Part shown: positions 2,352 through 16,917 of the stretch, piece by piece
Numbering within the stretch: position 1 is the first letter of the stretch
Layout of the letters: each line of letters begins with the position of its first letter
IMG/VR virus record: IMGVR_UViG_3300000117_000257
Span: 1 to 23,635 of that record
Direction: 5' to 3' (one strand)
Source: a virus
DNA: 23,635 nucleotides
The notes under the pieces: generated by a model
The model's input: the letters and a program-made list of their open reading frames with translations, nothing else
What the model was told of the DNA's origin: nothing
Database searches by the model: none
Position numbers and translations under genes: made by a program

Positions 2352-2702
2352 ATGGAACAAGCAGTAACTTTTATAAACGAAGTAGGCTTTCCAATAGCAG
2401 CAGCCTTAGGATTAGGTTTCTTTATATGGAAGCTTATTAATAGAATTATCGATGGCATGGAAACTAAACTTGATGTCCTGGATGATAAGGTTGCAGATCA
2501 GATAGACCAGATGGAACAAAGGCTCGGCACAAAGTTGGATTCTCAACATGGTATCTTAGTAGCTCTTATAGATCGCGTAAGAAGTTTAGACAACGAGATC
2601 ATACGTCAAGACACTCTTATTAAAACTATACTTGGTGTACCCCAATTGATAGATAGTAATAAGATTGCTAAAGCGGATAGAGATGATCAAAGGAAAGACT
2701 AA
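2352..2702 (+). CDS. Small single-span membrane protein with coiled coil (holin-like candidate)
   Basis: 116 residues. A short N-terminal segment is followed by one hydrophobic helix (about 11-31, FPIAAALGLGFFIWKLI). A long heptad-patterned helix follows (about 35-95, with repeated Leu/Ile/Val spacing such as LDVLDDKVADQIDQM) and then a charged tail ending in DRDDQRKD. This one-span plus coiled-coil layout resembles small phage holin-like proteins of the BhlA/UviB type, but I see no diagnostic motif. It is the first gene of the export cassette. Its stop overlaps the next start as TAATG, so translation is coupled to the CsgF-like gene. A role as membrane anchor or adaptor for the secretion apparatus is equally possible. 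Confidence 0.75.
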   Translation: MEQAVTFINEVGFPIAAALGLGFFIWKLINRIIDGMETKLDVLDDKVADQIDQMEQRLGTKLDSQHGILVALIDRVRSLDNEIIRQDTLIKTILGVPQLIDSNKIAKADRDDQRKD

Positions 2703-3166
2703 TGACTGACTGGGATAAATACTTAGCAATAACAGGTATTGTAATAATCTTATTGGTTGTTGCTACAAGTTCTTCAGCAGATGAAATGACTCACAAATTT
2801 AAAAGCCCTAGTTTTTCAGGGCAAAATACATCTAGTCATTATTTAACTATAGAAAACCAAGAGTTCAACAGAATAGAAGCTATAAGAGAAGAGATTAGAG
2901 CTTATCAAGAAGACTTAGAAAGAGAGGCAGAGAATACAACATTAGCTAGATTTATACGTAACCTTGAAAGTAGAATATATGCACAGCTCAGTAGACAATT
3001 GGTGGATAATTTATTTGGTGAAGCTTCATCTGATTTTGGTATTTTAGAATTAGAAGGAAATACCATAGAATATAGGGTTGAAGACGATAAGGTAACACTA
3101 ATAATTACAGATGAAGAAGGCAATACAACAGAAATTACTGTACCTCTCGGTTCTTTTTCTTTCTAG
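2702..3166 (+). CDS. csgF: CsgF-like curli secretion accessory protein
   Basis: 154 residues. Residues 8-26 form a hydrophobic signal peptide with cleavage likely after SSSA (26). The mature protein begins DEMTHKFKSPSFSGQ, matching by eye the start of E. coli CsgF (MTFQFRNPNFGG), the part that inserts into the CsgG pore and forms a second constriction. A charged helical middle (55-105) leads to FGxxSSDFGILELEGNTIEY and a beta-rich end with ITDEEGNTTEITVPL, like the CsgF C-terminus (VTDRKTGQTSTIQV). The N-terminus, the order of elements and the adjacency to csgG all agree. In curli biogenesis CsgF is exported, binds CsgG on the outer face and couples subunit secretion to nucleation. The gene is coupled to the upstream one by TAATG and overlaps csgG by 56 bases. 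Confidence 0.88.
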   Translation: MTDWDKYLAITGIVIILLVVATSSSADEMTHKFKSPSFSGQNTSSHYLTIENQEFNRIEAIREEIRAYQEDLEREAENTTLARFIRNLESRIYAQLSRQLVDNLFGEASSDFGILELEGNTIEYRVEDDKVTLIITDEEGNTTEITVPLGSFSF

Positions 3167-3923
3167 TTGCGCTTTAATAGTAGATCCATTAGATAATGGT
3201 GTACCTCCAATGCGGGATATTGAACCCGCACAAGTAAGTTCTTTAATTGTTCAAGAGCTAAAGGACATAGGACTACCTGTCAGAAAGCCTATAGTAGCTG
3301 TGTATGGAAACAGTTTTACTGACCAGACAGGCCAACGTAGATCTAATAGTCAGTACGCTAGTTTCAGTACAGCCATTACTTCTTCTCCTGATGCCTATCT
3401 CATAAGAGCACTTAAACACTCTAAGTTTTTTGATGTGGTAGAACGCAAAGGTTTGGATAACTTAACAAAAGAAAGACAGATCATCAGGAGCACACGAGAA
3501 AACTTCGACGAAAACCAAAAATTAAAGCCTCTTTTGTTTGCTGGGTTAATTATGGAAGGTGGCGTAATAGGCTACGAAACAAATATAAAGTCAGGAGGAG
3601 CTGGAGCCAGGTATCTTGGTATAGGTGCATCAAAACAATATAGGCAAGATAGTATCACTGTGTCACTACGAACAGTTTCAGTCAGCACAGGTAAAGTTTT
3701 GCTAGAAGTATTAGTAACCAAGAGTGTATTGAGTGCTTCTATATCACAAGACGTATTTAAGTTCTACAGTAATAATACTGAATTAGTTGAAATTGAGAGC
3801 GGGATAGTAGAAAATGAATCAGTAAATATAGCATTACAGGCTGCTGTGGAAACAGCGGTCTTAGAAACAATACTCGAAGGTTTAGAACTAGGGTATTGGG
3901 AGCAAAGAAGTGAGAACGAATAG
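3111..3923 (+). CDS. csgG: CsgG-like outer-membrane curli secretion pore lipoprotein
   Basis: 270 residues, about the size of E. coli CsgG. The start at 3111 gives a textbook lipoprotein signal (MKK, hydrophobic core, lipobox LSSC with Cys20), so the protein should be lipidated and sent to the outer membrane. Family landmarks: VAVYGNSFTDQTGQ (62-75), FSTAITSSPDAYLIRAL (85-101), ERKGLDNLTKERQIIR (111-126), GVIGYETNIKSGGAGARYLG (151-170) and SITVSLRTVSVSTGKVL (181-197). CsgG forms a nonameric, ungated-looking pore for unfolded subunits. At the constriction only the Phe (F85) seems kept. Aligned by eye, the E. coli Tyr51 and Asn55 positions are Ser80 and Ser84. No Shine-Dalgarno sequence is obvious, so expression probably depends on coupling to csgF. 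Phage CsgG-like genes are, to my recollection, known from some marine viruses. Confidence 0.93.
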   Translation: MKKAIQQKLLYLSVLFLSSCALIVDPLDNGVPPMRDIEPAQVSSLIVQELKDIGLPVRKPIVAVYGNSFTDQTGQRRSNSQYASFSTAITSSPDAYLIRALKHSKFFDVVERKGLDNLTKERQIIRSTRENFDENQKLKPLLFAGLIMEGGVIGYETNIKSGGAGARYLGIGASKQYRQDSITVSLRTVSVSTGKVLLEVLVTKSVLSASISQDVFKFYSNNTELVEIESGIVENESVNIALQAAVETAVLETILEGLELGYWEQRSENE

Positions 3924-4626
3924 ACTACTTATATTGTTGCTTTTAATAGCAACACCTTTTTATGCAGCTGACAACGAGATATTTATAGATCAGTCAGGTG
4001 CTACATCTAATTTAGATATTGAACAAGTTGGTGGTAGTGGCAACATTATCGGTGGTGCTGATGCTTCAGCTGGTTCTATGACCGCACTGGATATTGATGG
4101 TGCAACTATGACCTTAGATATTCTACAAAAAGGTTCAACAAATAAATTCTTAGGAGACATTTGGGCAGATACCTACACAGGTTATTTCTCGTTTATAGGT
4201 GACAGCAATACATTTAATATGTCTACAGATGAGACCAACGCTACAGGTGCAGATGGTTCTAATGTAAACGTACAAGTGACAGGTAATACAAACACAATGA
4301 CTCTCAATCATGCTATGACCGCACTAGCAGCAAGCTTAGATTTAGATTGGACTGTGCAAGGTGGTGGTAACAACATCACTGCAGCTATAGATGTTGATGG
4401 TGCTACTAACTTTATGGATATTGACGGTGATGATAATGTTGTTACCTATGATGGAGATGGCTATGCTGGAGGTTATTTCTACCTAGATCATACTGGCAGC
4501 ACAAGAACATTTAACATAGATCAGGAATCTACATCAGATAATGATTGGCTCAAGATTACATCTGTTGGCTCTAACGGCACTGTCTGTGTCACTCAGTCAG
4601 ACGCAACTACTTCATTCGTCTGCTGA
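3910..4626 (+). CDS. Curlin-like (CsgA/CsgB-type) exported repeat protein
   Basis: 238 residues with a GTG start, GGGAG 8 bases upstream, and a 14-base overlap with csgG. A signal peptide covers 1-20 (cleavage near FYAA). The mature chain is Asn/Asp/Gly/Thr-rich with no Lys- or Arg-rich patches and shows degenerate curlin spacing: IDQSGATSNLDIEQVGGSGN at the start, then units such as LDILQKGSTNKF, IGDSNTFNM, VTGNTNTMTL, VQGGGNNITAAI, IDGDDNVVTY and TGSTRTFNIDQ. Alternating hydrophobic/polar residues with Asn at turns predict a stacked beta-solenoid or amyloid-type fold. The C-terminus carries two cysteines (VCVTQSDATTSFVC), unusual for curlins, possibly a disulfide. Its place directly after csgG makes it the likely cargo of the pore. 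It is longer and less regular than E. coli CsgA (about 150 residues). Confidence 0.8.
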   Translation: MRTNRLLILLLLIATPFYAADNEIFIDQSGATSNLDIEQVGGSGNIIGGADASAGSMTALDIDGATMTLDILQKGSTNKFLGDIWADTYTGYFSFIGDSNTFNMSTDETNATGADGSNVNVQVTGNTNTMTLNHAMTALAASLDLDWTVQGGGNNITAAIDVDGATNFMDIDGDDNVVTYDGDGYAGGYFYLDHTGSTRTFNIDQESTSDNDWLKITSVGSNGTVCVTQSDATTSFVC

Positions 4627-5656
4627 GATAGGTTCTATTTCAGAGGTTAGAGGCAACGCACAAGTCCTAAGAGACAAAGCTTACGGAGCTGAGTTGCAAT
4701 TCAACATACAACAAATGGATGATGTCCGCACAGAAGCAGGCAGAGTCGCTATAACTTTTGAAGATTCTTCTACAGTCAAACTAACGGAACACTCTAAGTT
4801 AGTCATAGACGAATACATCTACGATCCCGACCCGTCAAAATCTAAAATGGCCCTGAAGTTTGCTAGTGGCACAGCGCGATTTATTACAGGTAAATTTAAC
4901 AACAAGAACAACATATCAATACGCACACCGACAGCTAATATAGCGATTCGTGGGACGGACTTTACGTGTACTGTGGACGAGCTAGGTAGATCTCTTGTCA
5001 TACTATTGCCTGACGAGAATGGTATATCCAGTGGCGAGATCATAGTATCTACGGGTATGGGTAGTGTGACACTGAACAAACCCTACCAGGCAACCACGGT
5101 ATCTGTGTTTGAAAACAATCCTACCAAACCAGTTACCTTAGATATATCGCTAGAGCTAATCGACAACATGCTCATTGTAAATCCGCCAGAACAGACAGAC
5201 GAATCGTTAGAGCAATCACAGACACAAGCCTCTGCTGACTACCTAGACTTTAACGACTTGGACATAGATTTTCTTGCTGAAGACTTTCTTGATGCGGAAG
5301 CAGAGCTAGAGTTTACTGAGTTAGATATTAATTACTTAGATGTAAACTTTTTAGAAGACTTGCTCAACGTACTAGATGCACTGGCTATATCTAAAGAAGA
5401 GGACGCACTTAAACAGGGTGGCGTAGGCATACGTATAGTTGGAACAGAAATAGGTCAGGACAAAGACACACAGATAACCACTATAGTATCTGGGCAAAGC
5501 ATAAATTTAACGAGGACAGTTAGCCAAAGTGCAAAACTAACTCTAGATGGATCAAACAGCTATACCATTATCTTAATACAGGATGGTGTATCTAATACGG
5601 TTAAGATCAATGGGGGATCTTCGACAACAATTAAAATTAAACAAGGATCAGGATGA
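4541..5656 (+). CDS. Exported FecR-domain protein with acidic linker and curlin-like C-terminus
   Basis: 371 residues, overlapping the curlin-like gene by 86 bases in another frame. That overlap encodes its signal peptide (1-28, cleavage near HSSA). Residues 29-200 are a FecR domain: IGSISEVRGNAQVLR, DDVRTEAGRVAITFEDSS, then the signature TPTANIAIRGTDF (129-141). FecR domains are periplasmic beta-rich sensors, first known from iron-dicitrate signalling. Residues 215-290 are strongly acidic with repeated DxxFL/DxNYLD patterns. The last 35 residues (337-371: SYTIILIQDGV, SNTVKINGG, STTIKIKQGSG) have the Gln-x-Gly-x4-Asn curlin repeat spacing. It lies just before a CHASE2 cyclase, and FecR and CHASE2-cyclase genes are often paired in bacteria. 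The start lacks a strong ribosome binding site; a TTG at 4565 is an alternative. Confidence 0.88.
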   Translation: MIGSRLHLLALTALSVSLSQTQLLHSSAEIGSISEVRGNAQVLRDKAYGAELQFNIQQMDDVRTEAGRVAITFEDSSTVKLTEHSKLVIDEYIYDPDPSKSKMALKFASGTARFITGKFNNKNNISIRTPTANIAIRGTDFTCTVDELGRSLVILLPDENGISSGEIIVSTGMGSVTLNKPYQATTVSVFENNPTKPVTLDISLELIDNMLIVNPPEQTDESLEQSQTQASADYLDFNDLDIDFLAEDFLDAEAELEFTELDINYLDVNFLEDLLNVLDALAISKEEDALKQGGVGIRIVGTEIGQDKDTQITTIVSGQSINLTRTVSQSAKLTLDGSNSYTIILIQDGVSNTVKINGGSSTTIKIKQGSG

Positions 5657-7398
5657 AAAAATTACAACTACTTGGTTTGATAGCTTTGCTTGGTCTGCCT
5701 TTGGTACTACAGCTTACTCCTCTAGAGATACTAAAGCTCAAGGTATTTGATTCATGGATCAAGGACCAAGAACCTTCTGGTTACTTTACGGTGCTAAATA
5801 TTACAGAACAAGATGTAAGGGACGAAGGAGGATGGCCTTTCCCTAGAGATCAACTGGCAGAAATACACATGCAGTTGTTAGAGCGTGGAGCTATGGGTGT
5901 AGGGTATGTTATAGCATTTAGTGAACCAGATCGTTTTGGTGGTGATGAAGCATTTGCAAACGTATTAGGTATGCATCCAAGTATCTTGGCTATGTTTGAA
6001 ACAGACAATCAACAATACCCACCAACTACGGGGACGGTAATACTTGGTGACGATGTAGGTGGAGTAATGTTGCAAGGTGCTACTCAGAATGTAGAAATCT
6101 TACGTGACAGTGCCTACCAGGGGATATCTTCTGCACCTATAGATGTGGATGGTTTGACCAGAAGACTGCCTTTATTAATGCGTACTCCTGATGGCTGGGT
6201 TCCTGCATTTGGTACACAAATATTAAAAGTATTAGCTGGTGCTGATACCTACGTTATAAATACAAATGATAATGGTATACAGGAAATCAGGGTAAAAGGG
6301 CTTCCAGCAGTCAAAACAGACAGTTTAGGGCGTAAGTGGATAAGTTTCGTGAATACCCCTACGACTACATTACAAGAAATGGATGTGGCAGATAAGTTTG
6401 TAATTGTAGGAGTAACAGCTAACGGAGTCATGCCGCAACTGTCCACACCAGCAGGGTTGTTGGAACCACATAAGATACAAGCAGCTTTGGCAGAAAGCAT
6501 ACTAATCCAAGACAGCCCATACATACCTGACTATTCATTAGCTGTGGAGTTGGTAACTCTAATAGTAGGTGTATTTGTAGTGTGGCTACTGCTTAATTTA
6601 TTGGGGATAACGTTGGGGATAACTTTTACAACGTTGTTTATGGGGCTTACTTTATTCGGTGGCTACAGCGTGGTCCAGCAAGGTGTATTAATTGATGTAA
6701 CCTGGACATTCATAGCTGAGTTTATAACAGCAACGATTACTTTCTATTTAAGATTTAGAGAGCAGTACAAACTACGACAACAGATTAAAAAACAATTCGA
6801 ACATTACTTAGATCCGAGGCAGGTAAAGGCTTTGCAGAACGATCCCAGTCTACTCAAGTTGGGCGGAGAACGACGGGACTGTACGTTTTTGTTTACAGAT
6901 GTACGTGGGTTTACTGCTATGAGTGAACGAATGGATCCTGAGTTAGTGACCAAGATTATGAATGAAGCATTAACGATACAATCAGATACAGTTAAGAAAT
7001 ATGGTGGCATGGTGGATAAGTATATTGGGGATGCAATGATGGCAATATTTAATGCGCCCATAGACCTGGTTAATCATGAAGAAGCTGCTGTGTTATGCGC
7101 ACAAGAAATACAAAAACAATTTAAAGAATCTTCTATTGGAGTTGAGATAGGCGTAGGGGTTAATACTGGTGAGGCAATTATTGGGAACATGGGAAGTGCA
7201 ACACGGTTTGACTACACAGCGATTGGAGATGCGGTAAACCTTGCAGCCAGACTTGAGTCTAGTACAAAGGAAGTAGGAGAAGACATAGTAATAGGAGAGT
7301 CCACAGCAAAAGCATGTTCTTTTCCTCTAGCGGTACTGCCTTCGATTACTGTTAAAGGTAAACAGGACAGGATAAACATATTCACCTTGATGCCCTAA
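5653..7398 (+). CDS. CHASE2-domain class III nucleotide cyclase (probable adenylate cyclase)
   Basis: 581 residues, overlapping the FecR gene by ATGA with AAGGA upstream. One membrane helix (about 5-22) leads into a periplasmic CHASE2 sensor (about 25-290, with WIKDQEPSGYFTVLNITEQD and GGWPFPRDQLAEI). Three helices follow (about 295-316, 318-338, 347-366), then a cytoplasmic cyclase domain (about 405-581). Catalytic residues all seem present: metal ligands D416 (LFTDVRGF) and D460 (KYIGDAMM), base-recognition K456 and T522, and transition-state N529 and R533 (GDAVNLAARLE). Lys/Thr at the base-recognition pair is the usual adenylate cyclase pattern. It should sense a periplasmic or membrane cue and make cAMP in the host cytoplasm. 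A signalling enzyme of this size is very unusual cargo for a phage genome this dense. Confidence 0.93.
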   Translation: MKKLQLLGLIALLGLPLVLQLTPLEILKLKVFDSWIKDQEPSGYFTVLNITEQDVRDEGGWPFPRDQLAEIHMQLLERGAMGVGYVIAFSEPDRFGGDEAFANVLGMHPSILAMFETDNQQYPPTTGTVILGDDVGGVMLQGATQNVEILRDSAYQGISSAPIDVDGLTRRLPLLMRTPDGWVPAFGTQILKVLAGADTYVINTNDNGIQEIRVKGLPAVKTDSLGRKWISFVNTPTTTLQEMDVADKFVIVGVTANGVMPQLSTPAGLLEPHKIQAALAESILIQDSPYIPDYSLAVELVTLIVGVFVVWLLLNLLGITLGITFTTLFMGLTLFGGYSVVQQGVLIDVTWTFIAEFITATITFYLRFREQYKLRQQIKKQFEHYLDPRQVKALQNDPSLLKLGGERRDCTFLFTDVRGFTAMSERMDPELVTKIMNEALTIQSDTVKKYGGMVDKYIGDAMMAIFNAPIDLVNHEEAAVLCAQEIQKQFKESSIGVEIGVGVNTGEAIIGNMGSATRFDYTAIGDAVNLAARLESSTKEVGEDIVIGESTAKACSFPLAVLPSITVKGKQDRINIFTLMP

Positions 7399-9241: not shown

Positions 9242-10114
9242 ATGATAGGCGATAGCGGCGGAATGGGCGGAGGCGGAGACGACTCCATAGACATAAAATT
9301 ACCTTCTTCTTTTTCAGGATACGGCTACGGTGGTGGTGGCATCAACGTTGCTGACTTCGGAGGGGACTACACTAGAGGACTTATAAATGCTGGGTTTGCG
9401 CCTGGCAATTTTGGTTTACCAGGAACTTCTGCTGATTATCAATCAGGTGGTAAGTTTAGTCCAGAAGGCATCGCTTCTTTGACTCCAGGCGGGTTTGAAA
9501 CTACAGGGGAAACAGGAACTTTAGATGGTGTTGACGCTGTGTTTGCTACAGCTAAGGCTGTAGATCCTATCGCATCCATGTTAAAAAACTACGGGAGTGA
9601 CATTAGCTTTACTCCTGACCCACAAACACCTGACATGTCTTCTTTCGTCGCACCTGGCGATCAACCGCAAGGCTCTTTCCTCGGTAACGTAGGTAAGAGT
9701 GTTACCAGTTTTCTAGGTAGATTGGCAAAAATACATCCAGCGACACGTAATGCAACTTTCGCCTTAGGTTTTATTAAAGGCCTGCAAGATGCTAAAGATC
9801 CAAAGTCTTTTGTAACGAACGTAGTAAAGCAACTCGGCGCGAGCAAAATCGGCTCCAACCTTGGCTTATCTGGAATACAGAAACAAGGTGTAGGCAGTCT
9901 TATTAATATGGCCAGAGGCAAACAAGACCTTGGTCAAACTATTAAAGGGCTAGGTACTTCTGCTGCTTTCAGGAAGGCTGCACCGTCAATCTTTAAATCG
10001 GCGTACGACAAAGGCGGAATGAACGGTGTTTACGCAGCAGCTGCAGCTCTGTCGATGGCACAAAAAGCTGCTATGAGAAAAGCTATGCAACCAGGACCTG
10101 GCGGTGGCGGGTAA
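9242..10114 (+). CDS. Gly-rich phage protein with Ala-rich helical C-terminus, possible virion/ejection protein
   Basis: 290 residues. The N-terminal 40 residues are very Gly/Ser-rich and look disordered. The middle (60-140) is low complexity. The C-terminal half (150-285) is basic and amphipathic, with KSVTSFLGRLAKIHPATRN, LGASKIGSNLGLSGIQKQG and MNGVYAAAAALSMAQKAAM, ending PGPGGGG. I do not recognise a named family. Composition and size recall internal virion or membrane-interacting phage proteins, so a structural or ejected role is an inference. The start lacks a Shine-Dalgarno sequence but lies 9 bases after a well-formed promoter, which favours this ATG over the internal one at codon 8. 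Confidence 0.78.
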   Translation: MIGDSGGMGGGGDDSIDIKLPSSFSGYGYGGGGINVADFGGDYTRGLINAGFAPGNFGLPGTSADYQSGGKFSPEGIASLTPGGFETTGETGTLDGVDAVFATAKAVDPIASMLKNYGSDISFTPDPQTPDMSSFVAPGDQPQGSFLGNVGKSVTSFLGRLAKIHPATRNATFALGFIKGLQDAKDPKSFVTNVVKQLGASKIGSNLGLSGIQKQGVGSLINMARGKQDLGQTIKGLGTSAAFRKAAPSIFKSAYDKGGMNGVYAAAAALSMAQKAAMRKAMQPGPGGGG

Positions 10115-10703: not shown

Positions 10704-10731
10704 TTGTTACTTTTTATTACCTTGGTATATA
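10704..10731 (+). promoter_or_regulatory. Promoter for terminase small subunit, near-leaderless
   Basis: TTGTTA (10704-10709), a 16-base spacer and TATATA (10726-10731), then 8 bases to the ATG at 10740, which has no Shine-Dalgarno sequence. The TTG at 10704, which could be misread as a start codon, is better explained as this -35 box. Confidence 0.5.
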
Positions 10732-10739
10732 CTTCGCAG

Positions 10740-11240
10740 ATGCCAAAAGGAACATCAGGAAACATATCAGGTAAGAATGATAAACATCTAACACCTAAGC
10801 AATTGCTTTTTGCTAAGGAGTACGTGTACAACGATGGATCTAAAACACAAACAGAATGTGCGCTTGCGGCGGGCTACGCTGATACTTCTGCAGCTGTCAG
10901 GGCTTCGGAGCTTTTAAACCCACAGAAGTACCCGCTTGTGGTTCGTTATATACAGGGCCTCCAGGCAGAGCTGGATAAAAAGTTTGAGGTAACATTCAGT
11001 AGACACGTCAGGCAGTTAGCCAAGATCAGAGACCAAGCCATTGATAAAGGTAATCTTACTGCGGCAGTATCGGCAGAGGTGCAAAGAGGTAGAGCGGCTG
11101 GCTTGTATGTGGAACGTAAGGAAGTCAGGACAGGCACGTTAGATTCGTTAAGTGAAGTAGAGATTAAACAAAGAATACAGAAACTACTGGGAGACTATAA
11201 ACCTCTACTTGAAGTAGAAGATGCAGTTATTGTTGAGTAG
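10740..11240 (+). CDS. terS: Terminase small subunit
   Basis: 166 residues from ATG 10740. A basic N-terminus is followed by LTPKQLLFAKEYVYNDGS and TECALAAGYADTSAAVRASELL (about 24-62), the helix-turn-helix of the Terminase_2 type, in which the LTxKQxxFxxEY and AAIxAGYS-like blocks recur. A long helix (about 65-130) for oligomerisation follows, then an acidic end. The small subunit recognises the packaging site and loads the large subunit and the prohead. It lies 6.6 kb from the large subunit gene, separated by the minus-strand small genes, whereas the two are usually adjacent. It is transcribed from its own promoter next to the repeat-rich region, which may hold its binding sites. It converges with the small gene at 11227. 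Confidence 0.88.
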   Translation: MPKGTSGNISGKNDKHLTPKQLLFAKEYVYNDGSKTQTECALAAGYADTSAAVRASELLNPQKYPLVVRYIQGLQAELDKKFEVTFSRHVRQLAKIRDQAIDKGNLTAAVSAEVQRGRAAGLYVERKEVRTGTLDSLSEVEIKQRIQKLLGDYKPLLEVEDAVIVE

Positions 11241-11947: not shown

Positions 11948-12086
11948 TAAATTGCATGTATGGTTGCGCTCGTGTCTTTGCGACCTCTATATTGTCCGTG
12001 CCTAATCGTATAGTCGGACGAGTAGAGTCTGAGCAAACCAATACATATTCCCCGCTTAGTTTGTCTAAAATGTACTCTTTAGTCAT
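11940..12086 (-). CDS. Small phage protein, unknown
   Basis: 48 residues beginning MTKEYILDKLSGEYVLVCSD and ending QPYMQFND. It overlaps both neighbours by 8 bases, which tiles the gap between them exactly and is the main support. No domain recognised; the pattern suggests a beta hairpin followed by a helix. Confidence 0.68.
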   Translation of the reverse strand: MTKEYILDKLSGEYVLVCSDSTRPTIRLGTDNIEVAKTRAQPYMQFND

Positions 12087-12285
12087 TCACATCCTCTGTA
12101 AGATTGTTAATGATTTCACTAATTGCTAATTTATGCAATTTCTTGTTGTTGCGTATTGCGTTCTCGTTTGTATCTATATAAACCAATGGAAGGCCTTTAG
12201 AATCTAAAAGCACGTTATATCTAACCCACTTCTCACAACAATTTAGGTACTGCGTCCCTATCCCTGTAATCTTTTGTAGATTCAT
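12079..12285 (-). CDS. Small phage protein, unknown
   Basis: 68 residues starting MNLQKITGIGTQYLNCCEKW. A longer frame is open to 12351, but the start at 12285 is chosen because GGAGAAAAGCTAATG there is the standard junction sequence of this operon and the upstream gene stops in it (TAATG). The body is basic with ENAIRNNKKLHKLAISEI helical. Not recognised. Confidence 0.75.
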   Translation of the reverse strand: MNLQKITGIGTQYLNCCEKWVRYNVLLDSKGLPLVYIDTNENAIRNNKKLHKLAISEIINNLTEDVND

Positions 12286-12482
12286 TAGCTTTTCTCCTCT
12301 TGTATGGCTTGGATATCGTCGGGGTAAATAGATAAGCCTTCTAATATGCAATCGTCATAAAGAGTATCTTTCCAATCTGCTAATTCCTCTGCTTTATTTA
12401 AGGCTTCGTTAAGTTCATTAGCTATTACCTTTTGAGTAGATATTTCCATATCTCTATTTGTTTTAATTACTAACCATTCCAT
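12285..12482 (-). CDS. Small acidic phage protein, unknown
   Basis: 65 residues. The N-terminus MEWLVIKTNRDMEISTQKVI resembles a beta strand plus helix. The helix then runs ANELNEALNKAEELADWKD, and the tail ends in EEKS, encoded by the shared junction sequence. Many phages carry short proteins of this layout whose function is unknown. Its start is again in a GGAGAAAAGCTAATG junction. Confidence 0.75.
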   Translation of the reverse strand: MEWLVIKTNRDMEISTQKVIANELNEALNKAEELADWKDTLYDDCILEGLSIYPDDIQAIQEEKS

Positions 12483-12760
12483 TAGCTTTTCTCCTTATTT
12501 GTAAATAAACGAATCCATTTCTCACTATCTGTTTCCCTCCAATCGTTTATAAGGTATATCGGGTATATAGAACAAAATGTTTCAGTTCTTGGTTTTTCCA
12601 TATCATCATCCCAACATTCAATATCAAAATACTGTCCGTTTATAATTATTTCGTTCCAAGATTGCTCGCCTTGACTATCATCTTGTAAAAACTCTCTATA
12701 TATTTCTTTTGCTTGCACTCTTCCTTGTTCAAGGTGTTCTTTTGTTATCCAATTAGCCAT
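12482..12760 (-). CDS. Small acidic phage protein, unknown
   Basis: 92 residues, rich in Trp and acidic residues (WNEIIINGQYFDIECWDDDMEK, then YLINDWRETDSEKWIRL). Not recognised. GGAGACAAGG lies before the start. The tail NKEKS is encoded by the junction sequence that starts the next gene. Confidence 0.75.
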   Translation of the reverse strand: MANWITKEHLEQGRVQAKEIYREFLQDDSQGEQSWNEIIINGQYFDIECWDDDMEKPRTETFCSIYPIYLINDWRETDSEKWIRLFTNKEKS

Positions 12761-12956
12761 TGTTCCTTGTCTCCTTAATTAATCTGTTTAAGTACCACTC
12801 TGCTTTGAGTAAGTCCTCAAGGCCGTTCTTATGTTTGTGTCGGGTAATATACTTAATGATATTACCCTCCAAGAATCCTAGCTCGTGAGACTGTATGTAG
12901 TCCGTGGTCTCTATACCTTTCTTGTAGTAAGAAGGATTTATTTTATCTTCATCCAT
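12753..12956 (-). CDS. DUF3310-family phage protein (related to T7 gp1.7)
   Basis: 67 residues from ATG 12956. The pattern INPSYYKKGIETTDYIQSH, then EGNIIKYITRHKHKNGLEDL and LKAEWYLNRLIKE, matches the DUF3310 family (NPxHYxxGxIExID...GNAxKYIxRxxxKxGxxDLxKAxWYLxR). T7 gp1.7, a member, is a nucleotide kinase. Whether this short form has activity cannot be told. An in-frame ATG at 12974 lies inside the previous gene with no ribosome binding site, whereas GAGAG precedes 12956, so the shorter form is preferred. Confidence 0.85.
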   Translation of the reverse strand: MDEDKINPSYYKKGIETTDYIQSHELGFLEGNIIKYITRHKHKNGLEDLLKAEWYLNRLIKETRNNG

Positions 12957-12960
12957 GGTT

Positions 12961-13176
12961 TTACTCTCTTTCATCTATTTCTGTTCCGTCGGGAAAGTAA
13001 AAGACTCCATATCCTTCTACAGAATCGCATTCTTCGTCTGTAATTTCGCCTTCAACATAATCATAATCTTTGATTTTTTCTATAGCCTCTTCATTAGTTT
13101 TAGCATCAACTTCTACTTTGTAACCAAACCAAGTAGATTCTTTCCTGTAAAAGGTAACTATCATTTTATCGCTCAT
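12961..13176 (-). CDS. Small acidic phage protein, unknown
   Basis: 71 residues. The N-terminus (KMIVTFYRKESTWFGYKVEVDAKTNEEAIEKI as an idea: strand-strand-helix) is the short beta-hairpin plus helix layout common to many phage accessory proteins, followed by a very acidic end (DEECDSVEGYG, TEIDERE). It starts in an AGGAGTCCGACAATG junction. Not recognised. Confidence 0.75.
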   Translation of the reverse strand: MSDKMIVTFYRKESTWFGYKVEVDAKTNEEAIEKIKDYDYVEGEITDEECDSVEGYGVFYFPDGTEIDERE

Positions 13177-13306
13177 TGTCGGACTCCTCTAATTGCCATT
13201 CTCCACACCAACCACAACTATAATCAAATCCTTGTTTGTACCATTTGATAGGAAGTGCTTGATAGGTTAGTTCACCTGTTTTGTTGCATTTGATACATTT
13301 ATTCAT
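13166..13306 (-). CDS. Small zinc-ribbon protein
   Basis: 46 residues from ATG 13306 (AGGAGTACGACAATG junction). Two Cys-x2-Cys pairs, CIKC (4-7) and CGWC near the end, are spaced as in a zinc ribbon. The tail LEESDNER is encoded by the next junction. The frame is open further upstream, but those codons lie in the neighbouring gene. Probably a small zinc-binding regulator or adaptor; the target is unknown. Confidence 0.78.
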   Translation of the reverse strand: MNKCIKCNKTGELTYQALPIKWYKQGFDYSCGWCGEWQLEESDNER

Positions 13307-13316
13307 TGTCGTACTC

Positions 13317-13457
13317 CTATCTCCAACATTTATAACCAAGGCAATCTTTTTTAGTCTCGCCACAATGCTCACAATACTTTTCGTCTCTTGCTTGTATCTC
13401 TTTGCGTAACCGCTTGATGATATGTTTTTGTATATTTATTATGTTGTCTTTACTCAT
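13317..13457 (-). CDS. Small cysteine-rich (probable zinc-binding) protein
   Basis: 46 residues: a basic helical N-terminus (MSKDNIINIQKHIIKRLRKE) followed by YCEHCGETKKDCLGYKCWR, with four Cys arranged as C-x2-C-x6-C-x4-C, likely a zinc site. It starts in a perfect AGGAGTCCGACAATG junction and ends just before the next start. Basic helix plus zinc knuckle suggests nucleic acid contact (inference). Confidence 0.75.
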   Translation of the reverse strand: MSKDNIINIQKHIIKRLRKEIQARDEKYCEHCGETKKDCLGYKCWR

Positions 13458-13773
13458 TGTCGGACTCCTTTTTATTATGGTAATCGTCTAATAACTGTCT
13501 CCAATTATATTCAAATGTTTCAGGGCAATATTTTGGTTCAGGATCTTCCCAATTAGAAATTGCAGAATGCAATCTATCTGTAAAATGAGCTCCAGCGTCA
13601 AAGTCATATTCATATTTATCAATAAATTCTTCTTTTGTAAGTGTACACAAGTCTTCTTCTTGTGTTTGACCTTGTATCTCTGCATCACACATAGCTATAA
13701 ACTGTTCTTTAAGTTCTTCTAACTCTTCTATATCGTGGTTAGCAAAACTATATACTTCAAATTCTCTACTCAT
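13450..13773 (-). CDS. Acidic phage protein, unknown
   Basis: 107 residues from ATG 13773 in the AGGAGTCCGACAATG junction; the frame is open six codons further but without a ribosome binding site. Strongly acidic and helical (IEELEELKEQFIAMCDAEIQ; FDAGAHFTDRLHSAISNWED). The tail KKESDNE is encoded by the following junction. Not recognised. Confidence 0.76.
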   Translation of the reverse strand: MSREFEVYSFANHDIEELEELKEQFIAMCDAEIQGQTQEEDLCTLTKEEFIDKYEYDFDAGAHFTDRLHSAISNWEDPEPKYCPETFEYNWRQLLDDYHNKKESDNE

Positions 13774-13891
13774 TGTCGGACTCCTCATCATCTAACCCAA
13801 CAAAGATAAGTTTTTCATCCATCCATTTTTTATTTATGCCATCTTTGGCTAATCTATCTTTAAATAATTTTTCTAGTTCTTTAGTTTTCAT
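13766..13891 (-). CDS. Very small phage protein, unknown
   Basis: 41 residues, MKTKELEKLFKDRLAKDG then a Trp-containing helix and the acidic tail GLDDEESDNE. It overlaps its neighbours by 4 and 8 bases, filling the gap exactly. The tail is produced by the shared junction sequence. Confidence 0.66.
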   Translation of the reverse strand: MKTKELEKLFKDRLAKDGINKKWMDEKLIFVGLDDEESDNE

Positions 13892-14037
13892 TTGCCTTGT
13901 CCTCTATATTGCTTGTGTGTTTGTTTTTTTCTTTTCGGCATTGATGAGGTGCTGAGATTTCCTCTGCCTATTGATGTCCCTTTACCTTTAATCCCTGTTG
14001 AGGATTTATGATCTATTAGCGTGCTCGCTTTTCTCAT
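13888..14037 (-). CDS. Small very basic phage protein (YRGQG type)
   Basis: 49 residues, highly basic, with SSTGIKGKGTSIGRGNLSTS and an ending of KQYRGQGK. I recognise the Ser/Gly/Lys-rich body with a Lys/Arg-Tyr-Arg-Gly-Gln-Gly terminus as a small protein recurring in marine phages; function unknown. Its charge, opposite to that of its acidic neighbours, suggests it may bind nucleic acid or one of them. It overlaps the next gene by ATGA. Confidence 0.7.
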   Translation of the reverse strand: MRKASTLIDHKSSTGIKGKGTSIGRGNLSTSSMPKRKKQTHKQYRGQGK

Positions 14038-14040
14038 TAG

Positions 14041-14214
14041 CTATTCTCCGTATGATGTTATTTGTTGCTCTTTTGTCAGCTTATCTTCATAAAAGTAAAC
14101 TACTGCTACACAACCTTTAGTTGCACATTCTTCGATTCTGTAGTCTATCTCGTCAAATTCATTAAAACTTCCAAGAAGACAAGCTACATCACCTGTATTT
14201 ATTTTATTAGCCAT
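14041..14214 (-). CDS. Small acidic phage protein, unknown
   Basis: 57 residues starting MANKINTGDVACLLGSFNEF and continuing IDYRIEECATKGCVAVVYFY, with three Cys and a probable beta-alpha-beta layout. It starts in a GGAGAAAAGATAATG junction and ends in the next GGAGAATAGCTAATG junction. Not recognised. Confidence 0.7.
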   Translation of the reverse strand: MANKINTGDVACLLGSFNEFDEIDYRIEECATKGCVAVVYFYEDKLTKEQQITSYGE

Positions 14215-14393
14215 TATCTTTTCTCCTCATAACTTTCTTGCCAATCTCTGCAAGGTTTTTGACTTAAATAGTAAAATGCACTTGTATCATATATGCGATA
14301 TTCTTTAAGATTATTTATAGCTTCTTTACGAGACTCAAATTCATCTACTGTTTCTAAATTTCCGTAAGGGTCTTTTCTTTGTATGTATTTCAC
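14214..14393 (-). CDS. Small phage protein, unknown (GTG start)
   Basis: 59 residues. A longer frame reaches an ATG at 14423, but the GTG at 14393 sits in GGAGAAAAGCTAGTG, the operon's standard junction with GTG in place of ATG, and overlaps the upstream stop by one base, so it is preferred. The body is KYIQRKDPYGNLETVDEFES with a following helix and Tyr-rich stretch (SAFYYLSQ). Not recognised. Confidence 0.7.
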   Translation of the reverse strand: MKYIQRKDPYGNLETVDEFESRKEAINNLKEYRIYDTSAFYYLSQKPCRDWQESYEEKR

Positions 14394-14626
14394 TAGCTTT
14401 TCTCCCACGTTGTATCTTTCCAATCAAAATCCTCTTCAAGGTTTTTTGCTAGTGTAGTTATTTGTTCCCATATTTGCTCACCACTATAAAACTCAAATGG
14501 TTCATAGGCATGATCGGTTAAGAATTTATACAGTTTATCCTCATTCCATTCTTCGGCTTCTACGGGTAGATGCTCAGTTAGGAAAGTAGCACTAGCGTAA
14601 ATAATAAAATCAAAATCAACTTTCAT
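14393..14626 (-). CDS. Small acidic phage protein, unknown
   Basis: 77 residues, acidic, beta-strand start (MKVDFDFIIYASATFLTE) then helices rich in Glu/Trp/Phe (EEWNEDKLYKFLTDHAYEPF). The start is in a perfect AGGAGTCCGACAATG junction. The tail TTWEKS is encoded by the following junction. Not recognised. Confidence 0.76.
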   Translation of the reverse strand: MKVDFDFIIYASATFLTEHLPVEAEEWNEDKLYKFLTDHAYEPFEFYSGEQIWEQITTLAKNLEEDFDWKDTTWEKS

Positions 14627-14897
14627 TGTCGGACTCCTTATTTTTTAGTCTATCCATTGCATTATCAAAAGCTTCTAGCAAATCAATTCTAATTTCGGTA
14701 AAGGCATATTCTAATTTATCATCAAACTCTACCAATCCATTTTCAATATCATCATCAGTCGGTACTCTTGAAAATCCAAATTGCTCAAACAAATCTTCAA
14801 GTACATCTGTTATCTCAGCAAATCCTTCAGAAGATACTGTTAATTTATCACTAACATAACCTGATTCATCTTCGTATTTATCAAAAAATTCATTCAT
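14616..14897 (-). CDS. Small acidic phage protein, unknown
   Basis: 93 residues, strongly acidic. The core FAEITDVLEDLFEQFGFSRV is helical, and the tail NKESDNES comes from the junction sequence. The start lies in a variant junction (GGAGACCGACAATG). It could be a DNA-mimic type protein given the charge, but that is speculation. Confidence 0.75.
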   Translation of the reverse strand: MNEFFDKYEDESGYVSDKLTVSSEGFAEITDVLEDLFEQFGFSRVPTDDDIENGLVEFDDKLEYAFTEIRIDLLEAFDNAMDRLKNKESDNES

Positions 14898-15063
14898 TGT
14901 CGGTCTCCGTAATATCTTTAATATGCGATTCGTCTATTTCAAATAAGACTCCGCAAAAACTGTTGTATTCCTTAACAAGCTCTCTAACAAATTCTTGTTT
15001 GTCATTGGCTTGTCGGACTGGATGAACTGTTCCAAGTTCAATAGTACATTCAAATGTTTTCAT
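14890..15063 (-). CDS. Small phage protein, unknown
   Basis: 57 residues: MKTFECTIELGTVHPVRQAN, then a helix (KQEFVRELVKEYNSF) and a beta end with CGVLFEIDESHIKDI and tail ETDNE. Overlaps the next gene by 8 bases and the upstream stop by one base (TAATG). Its layout (strand, helix, strand) resembles the protein at 12961. Not recognised. Confidence 0.7.
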   Translation of the reverse strand: MKTFECTIELGTVHPVRQANDKQEFVRELVKEYNSFCGVLFEIDESHIKDITETDNE

Positions 15064-15578
15064 TAGTTTTGCTCCTTGTTAAAAAATAAACTTAGTATGT
15101 CTTCCACTTGTTCAGATATATCCATAAATTTATTTTGAGCATCTTCGGTATAAACTTCACCTCCGTTTTCGTCTTCTGTCCATACAGGGTCTAAAGCGGA
15201 AAAATGAAGAATAAAAGAAGATAAGCTTGAATATAGTTCTACCCAAGTTTCAGAAGGTATGGTTATTTTGTTCGGATAAGTCGTTTCCTCCCATATAACA
15301 TCTTCAAGGGTAAAATCTACTATCGCTTCATCAAGAAAACCTAATTCAACACATTTTCCAATTATTGATTTTTCGTCTTTTATTTCATCCATTTCAAAGG
15401 TGTAGCCAAATGTTTGATCAAAATCTAACATGCCTTTAAATTTGCCTTCATTAGATTCAAAATCCCAATCGTTCCATAAGTCGGCAAAGTCATCATTACC
15501 TAACCATAAGTATTTATAGAAGTCTCCATTCTTTAGTTCAGCATGAATTAATTTGGTAGTTTGTATTTTGTTAGCCAT
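15063..15578 (-). CDS. Acidic phage protein, unknown
   Basis: 171 residues, the largest product of the leftward run, acidic and rich in Trp/Phe (DFYKYLWLGNDDFADLWNDW; ETWVELYSSLSSFILHFSAL). No signal peptide or membrane helix. Not recognised. It starts a single base into the upstream stop (TAATG). Confidence 0.78.
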   Translation of the reverse strand: MANKIQTTKLIHAELKNGDFYKYLWLGNDDFADLWNDWDFESNEGKFKGMLDFDQTFGYTFEMDEIKDEKSIIGKCVELGFLDEAIVDFTLEDVIWEETTYPNKITIPSETWVELYSSLSSFILHFSALDPVWTEDENGGEVYTEDAQNKFMDISEQVEDILSLFFNKEQN

Positions 15579-15916
15579 TACGCCACCTCTTCTAGTTGGT
15601 TGACGTAATCGGAAACAATCTCTTCGCCTATGATATAGACGTACATATTAACGACTCGTTCAGGACTGCTAAAATCGGTAGTAACTTCGCCAAAATGCAT
15701 CTCTTCGTATTCTCTGATATGTTCTATTACGTCAAAAACCATATCATCTAGCCATAGCTTCGCTCTGTATGTTCCTATAATGTAGTAATCACTATTAAAA
15801 GCGTTATGGTGTAGATCATCTATCCATGTAGTTGGATAGTTTTCTTCAAAGAATGTTTTGTTTTCGTTAATATAGTTATCAAAGTAATCTTTGATCTCTT
15901 CTCTTTTATATTCCAT
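15578..15916 (-). CDS. Conserved phage protein, unknown
   Basis: 112 residues and the first gene of the long leftward operon. The blocks WIDDLHHNAFNSDYYIIGTY, KLWLDDMVFDVI and EVTTDFSSPERVVNMYVYII form a pattern I recognise from a widespread family of small acidic phage proteins of unknown function. AAGGAG lies 8 bases before the ATG, and a promoter is predicted at 15951-15979. Confidence 0.82.
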   Translation of the reverse strand: MEYKREEIKDYFDNYINENKTFFEENYPTTWIDDLHHNAFNSDYYIIGTYRAKLWLDDMVFDVIEHIREYEEMHFGEVTTDFSSPERVVNMYVYIIGEEIVSDYVNQLEEVA

Positions 15917-16570: not shown

Positions 16571-16601
16571 TAAAAAAGGCATGAGCCGTTAAACCCATGC
16601 C
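16571..16601 (-). terminator. Intrinsic terminator of the 17503-16624 unit
   Basis: On the minus strand GGCATG (16601-16596) pairs with CATGCC (16583-16578) and is followed by six T (16577-16572). It lies just after the last gene of the three-gene leftward unit. A second small hairpin (CACTTT...AAAGTG) lies between the gene end and this terminator. Confidence 0.82.
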
Positions 16602-16623
16602 TCCACTTTAGGAGAAAGTGTTC

Positions 16624-16917
16624 TTATTCCTCTTGTACTTTCTGTAGCCATTCATAGGCTATAGAAGAGAGGTGTTCATATATGGATGCCACTACAATAT
16701 CATAGACCGAAGCGTTCTCTGGTAATAAACCTGGATCAGATACTGTGGCTAAGTCATGATCAGAAGCCAGGCATTCTATCTGATCGGAATAATAGATAGG
16801 TATGGCCGAATATATATATTCATCAAGCATATCTTCTGGATAACTATGCTCAAGGATCTCCGTTTTGTTGTTGTTTAAATCGTGTTTAAGGTTCTGTATT
16901 ACTTCACTAAATGTCAT
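16624..16917 (-). CDS. Small acidic phage protein, unknown
   Basis: 97 residues from ATG 16917 (MTFSEVIQNLKHDLNNN). A longer frame reaches 17016, but its extra part overlaps the neighbouring gene, and the GGAGAAAACAAATG ribosome binding site marks 16917. The pattern EMLDEYIYSAIPIYYSDQ-like and VVASIYEHLSSIAYEWL is helical and acidic, and resembles the style of the conserved protein at 15578. Function unknown. Confidence 0.78.
   Translation of the reverse strand: MTFSEVIQNLKHDLNNNKTEILEHSYPEDMLDEYIYSAIPIYYSDQIECLASDHDLATVSDPGLLPENASVYDIVVASIYEHLSSIAYEWLQKVQEE

Follow-up and report, generated by a model that had tools for sequence, protein, structure and literature searches.

Integron arrays hold exchangeable single-ORF cassettes between recurring sites; the attC inverted repeats fold, and the integrase is a tyrosine recombinase. 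Most phage mosaic joins carry no recognisable shared sequence, so illegitimate recombination is usually invoked (PMC3029335). In lambdoid phages, short conserved sequences at module joins have been proposed as homologous recombination sites creating mosaicism (Susskind and Botstein 1978; Clark et al. 2001, as cited in PMC3029335). In Island3 and Brujita, cluster I mycobacteriophages, neighbouring genes have a C-terminal stretch in common; recombination between these copies accounts for a gene being present or absent (PMC3029335). PeSLs, promoter(early)-stem-loop elements of T4-type phages, mediate small-gene shuffling in a variable region (Arbiol et al. 2010; Comeau et al. 2014, as cited in PMC4503421). 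Cluster K mycobacteriophages carry SAS, many short asymmetric AGGAG-containing repeats just upstream of non-structural gene starts, some holding the upstream stop (Pope et al. 2011, PMC3203893). The SAS consensus is 13 bp, GGGATAGGAGCCC; about half continue into a 17-bp imperfect inverted repeat (ESAS) (PMC3203893).

The window is the whole stretch of viral DNA analysed here, 23,635 nucleotides (IMG/VR record IMGVR_UViG_3300000117_000257). Its minus strand carries 12 joints of 15 nt each at 12283-15075. Like SAS, they are recurring asymmetric AGGAG-containing repeats just upstream of non-structural gene starts. Unlike SAS, their A, B and C consensus sequences differ from GGGATAGGAGCCC, the three types lie in blocks and breakpoints are found at the joints; unlike ESAS, they have no inverted-repeat extension, and nothing is conserved upstream of -13. 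They share with PeSLs an association with small-gene shuffling in a variable region, but PeSLs, as summarised in PMC4503421, are promoter-terminator composites, whereas the joints are translation elements inside gene overlaps, with no hairpin. No terminator-like sites were found at the joints; promoter-like sites there are no commoner than in shuffles, and no RNA structure beyond that of shuffles was found at six joints. As with lambdoid boundary sequences, a short sequence is conserved at module joins and homology changes there. Unlike these, the joints are RBS-plus-start elements, partly coding, with up to 12 copies and three types per array; the modules are single small ORFs in uncultured, mostly marine phages, and the use of the joints as homology is suggested by the like-joint preference in contig comparisons. 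Island3/Brujita is one case, in which the shared tail has 18 residues, whereas the joints form a general multi-copy system. Exchangeable single-ORF cassettes separated by recurring sites are common to integron arrays and to this locus, but no attC-like inverted repeats were found here, nor an integrase in nine related, possibly fragmentary records, and the joint itself gives RBS and start. The kind of element is already known from lambdoid boundary sequences, PeSLs and SASs; the multi-copy, coding-overlap form is new. In the literature on RBS-type exchange joints, nothing nearer than these three was found.

Joints and genes of the array

Features of the array are as follows.

15061-15075, minus: joint, type C, exact (GGAGCAAAACTAATG); start and RBS of gene 14890-15063, stop of gene 15063-15578 (tail KEQN)
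14895-14909, minus: joint, type B, two mismatches (CGGAGACCGACAATG); start of gene 14616-14897, preceding gene's tail ETDNE
14624-14638, minus: joint, type B, exact; start of gene 14393-14626, preceding gene's tail ESDNES
14391-14405, minus: joint, type A, one mismatch, GTG start; start of gene 14214-14393, preceding tail EKS
14212-14226, minus: joint, type A, one mismatch; start of gene 14041-14214, preceding gene's tail EKR
14035-14049, minus: joint, type A, one mismatch; start of gene 13888-14037
13771-13785, minus: joint, type B, exact; start of gene 13450-13773, preceding gene's tail ESDNE
13455-13469, minus: joint, type B, exact; start of gene 13317-13457, preceding gene's tail ESDNE
13304-13318, minus: joint, type B, one mismatch, outside the ESDNE frame; start of gene 13166-13306
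13174-13188, minus: joint, type B, exact; start of gene 12961-13176, preceding gene's tail ESDNER
12480-12494, minus: joint, type A, exact; start of gene 12285-12482, preceding gene's tail EKS
12283-12297, minus: joint, type A, exact; start of gene 12079-12285, preceding gene's tail EKS
14212-14405, minus: 194-bp cassette, gene 14214-14393 with both A joints
12961-15063, minus: small-ORF array (41-107 aa), upstream of DUF3310
12757-12956, minus: DUF3310 gene, anchor between B and A blocks
12758-12772, minus: single-copy joint in the DUF3310 tail (AGACAAGGAACAATG); in relatives, different next genes start at the identical place
12079-12760, minus: genes of the A-block side, 12482-12760, 12285-12482 and 12079-12285

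The window scan gave five joints of type A (GGAGAAAAGCTAATG; two exact), six of type B (AGGAGTCCGACAATG; four exact) and one exact joint of type C. The initial annotation had described two junction types, six copies of each, at 12283-14909. Types A and B are real and the joints are present there, but six of each are reached only with up to two mismatches; the sixth A copy (15061), two mismatches from type A, is an exact copy of a third type, C, the three types are zoned in blocks, and the array reaches 15075. With up to three mismatches, type A occurs 9 times in the window against a shuffle mean of 1.03 (largest 3), and type B occurs 6 times against 0.36 (largest 2). The numbers of joints in the window far exceed chance. 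A lone antisense copy of type A, with one mismatch, lies at 9601; two three-mismatch matches lie elsewhere in the window.

Joints span -12 to +2 relative to the start codon. Every joint is the Shine-Dalgarno core and start codon of one minus-strand ORF, and in most the upstream gene's stop lies within the joint or just beyond; on both points the annotation, which had most joints supplying the previous gene's last codons or stop, was right. Type A has a one-base stop/start overlap (..CTAATG), giving EKS or EKR tails at 14391, 14212, 12480 and 12283. Type B has an overlap of 8 or 11 nt, giving ESDNE, ESDNES or ESDNER tails, and ETDNE at 14895. Exceptions are 14035, where the upstream gene ends ..SYGE with its stop 6 nt ahead of the start, and 13304, where it ends ..KCWR with its stop 13 nt ahead. 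The 3' end of the DUF3310 gene is the RBS for whichever gene follows. DUF3310 alone was above the Pfam cut-off among the small genes scanned; PHROGs gave weak matches only on the genes scanned, nearly all to families of unknown function.

The shared tails EKS, EQN and ESDNE are by-products of the joints. One protein body carries three tails in different contigs (DTTW-EKS, DTTW-ESDNE and DTTW-EYKNG). Among the matches listed, a single DNA spelling is used in 122 of 132 EKS tails and 105 of 114 ESDN tails, despite synonyms. Sixteen B joints hold the DNA sequence out of frame. Conservation follows nucleotides, wobble bases included, and not the peptide. The annotation had also suggested a functional C-terminal tag; on that reading the DNA would be kept because of the peptide. 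Tails common to many unrelated small proteins favour such a tag, but it is hardly credible and was rejected on DNA spelling, frame and the switching of tails with the neighbouring gene.

Spread and breakpoints in related contigs

Searched for in other genomes, as the annotation had proposed, the 15-mers recur in at least dozens of IMG/VR contigs of uncultured, mostly marine phages. Typical order is C block, B block, A block around DUF3310. Type C has at least 29 copies in at least 16 contigs. Types run in blocks, with like neighbours in 187 of 271 cases against 118 when permuted (maximum 138). Two or more joints occur in only 5 of 41 DUF3310-anchored contigs, the window counted; many of the 41 are distant. 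No recurring joints were found in the first 50 kb of each of the named relatives 023Pt_psg01, DSL-LC04, HTVC027P and HTVC023P. DNA matches of the array region to named phage records were two short stretches, 64-99 bases, in the DUF3310 gene. The cassette 14212-14405 is present edge to edge, at 94% identity, in contig L133, whose terminase is unrelated, and at 85-91% in L095, L159, L182, L215, L374 and L198. It is conceivable, though doubtful, that phages whose packaging genes are unrelated use the A, B and C joints as a common cassette standard. Small accessory genes would then form a communal pool open to any phage with the same joints; joint type would set the array zone and perhaps the expression class, possibly aided by a joint-recognising phage factor.

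Gene order and content of the array vary among related contigs, and the breaks coincide with joints, as the annotation had expected of relatives. The relatives thus show neither of the patterns that it had named as refuting, conserved gene order with unrelated junctions or altered content with breaks elsewhere. With the same upstream and a different downstream gene (312 pairs), identity is about 0.9 to +2, then 0.3-0.4 by +4/+5. With the same downstream and a different upstream gene (336 pairs), identity stays near 0.3-0.5 as far as -13 and is 0.87-1.0 from -12 onward. Ends of BLAST tracts, independent of gene calls, lie within 5 nt of a joint edge in 43% and 41% of cases; random positions give 4.4% and 4.5%. 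Of the tracts extending as far as an A, B or C joint, 89% stop at it; the figure is 42-47% for other gene starts and 59 of 1,621 for mid-gene sites. With one count per gene pair, the figures are 150 of 166 at A/B/C joints and 24 of 37 at other starts (p = 0.0003, indicative, as are all p-values here, because contigs were mostly picked for having a joint and are partly related). Other gene starts are likewise rich in breakpoints (42-65%), so selection for intact genes accounts for part of the signal. One mid-gene breakpoint lies near 15280.

Tandem duplication of a gene with its joint, followed by divergence, or an assembly error is a highly improbable origin of the repeats. Some neighbours are of one family, as in L192, where two members adjoin, but the array genes of the window belong to different families and their flanks have no similarity beyond the 15-mer; tandem duplication was rejected on these grounds. 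Identical joins occur in separate contigs (L095 and L159, L137 and L196), and 15-mers would be below the usual assembly k-mers; both count against such an origin.

Gain and loss at like and unlike joints

Gain or loss events with conserved flanks have like joints at both ends in 35 of 59 cases (13.6 expected). In events with A, B or C at both ends, the joints are alike in 26 of 26 (18.5 expected; indicative p = 5e-5). Unlike ends occur in 20 of the 59 close-flank events, so like joints are not required. The joint remains with the upstream gene in these, so that the unit becomes an ORF together with its 3' tail, and this tail serves as RBS for the gene that follows. The like-joint preference makes boundary selection measurable against homology at the boundary.

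That whole genes move precisely at a short recurring site would suit a dedicated site-specific or homing system (an integron-like integrase or similar) working on the joints. Such a system is very improbable, as no PF00589 tyrosine recombinase was found in nine related records (possibly fragments), the joints are asymmetric and fold no better than shuffles, and events with unlike ends are common.

The joints could instead be primarily translation or regulatory elements, like start-associated sequences and possibly bound by a phage or host factor. Selection would keep them identical, illegitimate recombination would turn genes over, and boundary joins alone would survive. This is unlikely, but has points in its favour: the element is placed exactly on RBS and start, and bases outside the Shine-Dalgarno core and wobble bases are conserved. 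In orthologous joints (only 16 pairs), conservation is higher in the motif than in its flanks, at 0.975 against 0.91 and 0.90 for A/C, and 0.986 against 0.84 and 0.96 for B. Identity within and between contigs is equal (0.928 and 0.918 for A, 0.936 and 0.938 for B), so recent homogenisation is not apparent and there is no trace of recent concerted evolution; contig-specific homogenisation was rejected on these values. Not predicted by regulation are the excess of like joints over array composition (the 26 of 26 above) and the more frequent breakpoints at A, B and C than at other Shine-Dalgarno-bearing starts of the same arrays. Genes in relatives, moreover, still function with other joints.

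Proposed route of gene exchange

The array is probably a gene-cassette zone in which translation-start joints double as short recombination homologies. As RNA, a joint provides the Shine-Dalgarno core and start for the downstream gene while overlapping the end of the upstream gene; given this overlap, translation probably runs from gene to gene in a coupled chain. At the DNA level, the joint is a short identity common to unrelated genes, within one genome and between phages. Recombination would pair like joints, B with B and A with either A or C, and exonuclease-plus-annealing during co-infection is its most likely pathway. One or several whole ORFs would be inserted, deleted or swapped, and a functional joint would be rebuilt every time. 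At unlike joints the change would still be at the start codon, and the 3' tail of the incoming ORF would become the RBS of the next gene. Such trading of whole genes looks like a plug-and-play system without a dedicated enzyme, and may benefit the phage. Of the annotation's reading of the joints as points of exchange by homologous recombination, the exchange points are borne out by the breakpoints and the like-joint preference; homologous recombination is the putative agent.

In these uncultured, mostly marine phages the exchange points can be seen, recur, fall into types and lend themselves to statistical tests. They offer a concrete route for trading small genes of unknown function with expression left intact, and a simple gene finder: metagenomes can be scanned for joints and the ORFs between them read. 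A length of 15 nt is short for homologous recombination and counts against recombination at the joints. Also against it, no RecT, ERF or YqaJ protein was found in the related records, which are possibly fragments. In its favour is a PDDEXK nuclease, present in six of nine related records.

The small-gene array and its joints

The window is an entire IMG/VR virus record (23,635 bp, GC 39%). The large terminase shares 63.5% identity with that of phage 023Pt_psg01 (seawater), 61% with that of phage DSL-LC04 and 56–60% with those of pelagiphages HTVC027P and HTVC023P; judged from pelagiphage relatedness, a marine bacterium such as SAR11 is a plausible host. A minus-strand chain of small ORFs is bounded by the small and large terminase genes; those in the array itself measure 41–107 aa. 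Twelve array ORFs start at a recurring 15-mer, the joint, which carries a Shine-Dalgarno core and the start codon: five are type A (≤1 mismatch), six type B (≤2) and one type C. The initial annotation had counted A and B six times each; this holds for B at up to two mismatches, and the A copy counted at 15061 is an exact type C. At three mismatches, A is matched 9 times against a shuffle mean of 1.03, and B 6 times against 0.36.

10704–11237, small terminase gene
12757–12956, DUF3310 gene, between the B and A blocks
15061, type C joint, exact copy

In 160 A, 132 B and 36 C joints of related contigs, the conserved stretch extends from −12 to +2 relative to the start codon, with abrupt edges. 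The sole trend beyond is a preference for A at −13 (types A, C) and at +3 (type B). The upstream stop overlaps the start by one base in 139/163 A and 32/41 C joints; at type B the stop mostly starts 5, 8 or 11 bases after the start codon's first base (67, 61 and 10 of 176). Because the upstream stop falls in or just past the joint, the upstream proteins end in EKS, EQN or ESDNE. These tails, proposed earlier as a possible functional tag, are by-products of the nucleotide element. One protein body has three endings: DTTW-EKS in the window, DTTW-ESDNE in contig L191 and DTTW-EYKNG in contig L083. A single DNA spelling accounts for 122/132 EKS and 105/114 ESDN tails, and 16 B joints lie outside the ESDN reading frame, all three counts being somewhat inflated since contigs were fetched through exact B, later exact A copies.

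Homology breaks at joints

Gene content between anchors differs in nearly every contig. The joints had been proposed as swap points, and comparison of gene content among related phages supports this, four measurements placing the changes there. In alignments anchored at the start codon, pairs that share the upstream but not the downstream gene keep about 90% identity to +2 and drop to 0.3–0.4 by +4/+5; pairs that share the downstream but not the upstream gene show about 0.3–0.5 up to −13, then 0.87–1.0 at −12. Both profile sets were restricted to A/B/C joints, so high identity within the motif is expected, and the finding lies in the sharp outer edges. BLAST homology tracts, determined without gene order, end ≤5 nt from a joint edge in 43% of 930 and 41% of 1,053 cases (random positions, 4.4% and 4.5%). 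Of tracts reaching an A/B/C joint, 89% stop there, versus 42–47% of those reaching other tight gene starts within these arrays; mid-gene, 59 stop versus 1,562 passing through. With distinct gene pairs counted once, most tracts stop at 150/166 A/B/C joints versus 24/37 other SD-bearing joints (p = 0.0003; this and later p-values are only indicative, because the sample consists largely of contigs selected for bearing joints, and related contigs are non-independent). Gene calls were made by a simple script favouring joint-bearing starts. All contigs are metagenome assemblies; an assembly artefact is unlikely, since assembly k-mers usually exceed these repeats in length and separate contigs show the same joins.

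Window cassettes (an ORF with its flanking joints) at 14212–14405, 13173–13318, 14624–14908 and 12281–12495 recur in other contigs with edges 0–2 nt from joints. One is common to contigs with unrelated terminases: the 194-bp cassette 14212–14405 is 94% identical in L133. The L133 terminase matches PHROG families of a different set, and BLASTP shows no significant similarity between it and that of the window. The cassette is also found at 85–91% in L182, L095, L159, L215, L374 and L198, with different neighbours. L133 (terminase matching PHROG 2 and others) also carries the same A joints and has cassettes in common with relatives of the window. In gene 15063–15578 (−), homology to other contigs breaks mid-gene near 15272–15288, a pattern suggestive of intragenic recombination in a gene made up of two parts.

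Gain and loss of cassettes

Gain or loss was scored in 59 events with flanks ≥75% identical on both sides. Like joints stand at both ends in 35/59 versus 13.6 expected; where both ends are A/B/C joints, 26/26 are alike versus 18.5 expected (p = 5e-5; A and C scored as alike). Selection on boundaries alone does not predict this preference. The joint may also be under selection as a translation element, which is compatible with a role in recombination. In 20/59 events the short form's joint equals the left but not the right joint of the long form. At such unlike ends the joint remains that of the upstream gene, and the tail carried by the new ORF becomes the next ribosome binding site. At the DUF3310 tail, the genes that follow differ between contigs but begin at one common position; where relatives lack a cassette at this spot, the DUF3310 gene is followed by the homologue of 12079–12285, a gene that in the window has an A joint instead. 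Over all joints, sequence follows the upstream more than the downstream gene (identity 0.595 versus 0.471; per family p = 0.02).

The mechanism proposed for the observed joints, breakpoints, like-joint preference and tail switching is annealing-type recombination at 12–15 nt of identity, which would occur during co-infection; array genes would be translationally coupled. A PDDEXK nuclease is present in 6/9 related records; searches for RecT, ERF, YqaJ and integrase found none in records that may be incomplete.

Spread, order and related systems

An exact type B scan gave at least 119 stretches. The resulting set, which takes in terminase relatives, has 170 non-redundant contigs. In it type A, not a search query, was seen 89 times in 42 contigs and type C 29 times in 16; 61 contigs have two or more joints. 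Neighbouring joints are alike in 187/271 cases versus 118 permuted (largest permuted, 138). Their order is non-random: C runs, then B, then A, the DUF3310 gene separating the B and A blocks. Joint arrays do not occur everywhere: when contigs, many of them distant, were retrieved by DUF3310 alone, only 5 of the 41 non-redundant ones (window included) had ≥2 joints. Several close relatives have other joints at the same places; in the first 50 kb of each of the four named relatives no recurring joints were found. Upstream of the DUF3310 gene in contigs L209–L229, further joints are seen in more than one contig, usually as a single copy in each (for example GGAGGTGGCGTAATG, GGGAGGAGGACGAATG and GAGGACAAGGCAAATG). 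Some stay with the upstream gene where the downstream gene differs.

SAS elements share position and repetition with the joints, but neither sequence nor the SAS inverted-repeat extension. PeSLs share the shuffling role but are promoter–terminator elements. Lambdoid boundary sequences are closest in principle; the A/B/C system is rated a variant of this type, the variant itself being new.

Elsewhere in the window, a one-mismatch A copy at 9601–9615 (−) is antisense to a plus-strand gene, is followed by no listed ORF of 40 aa and is probably due to chance. A terminator-like hairpin (13 pairs and a T-run) at 16575–16604 (−) lies upstream of the array, between genes 16624–16917 and 15578–15916. 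A curli/type VIII secretion block at 2702–7395 (+) comprises CsgF, CsgG, an unmatched ORF in the position of the curli fibre gene, FecR and a CHASE2 adenylate cyclase; a comparable block is reported from HTVC023P-type pelagiphages (PMC9599517).
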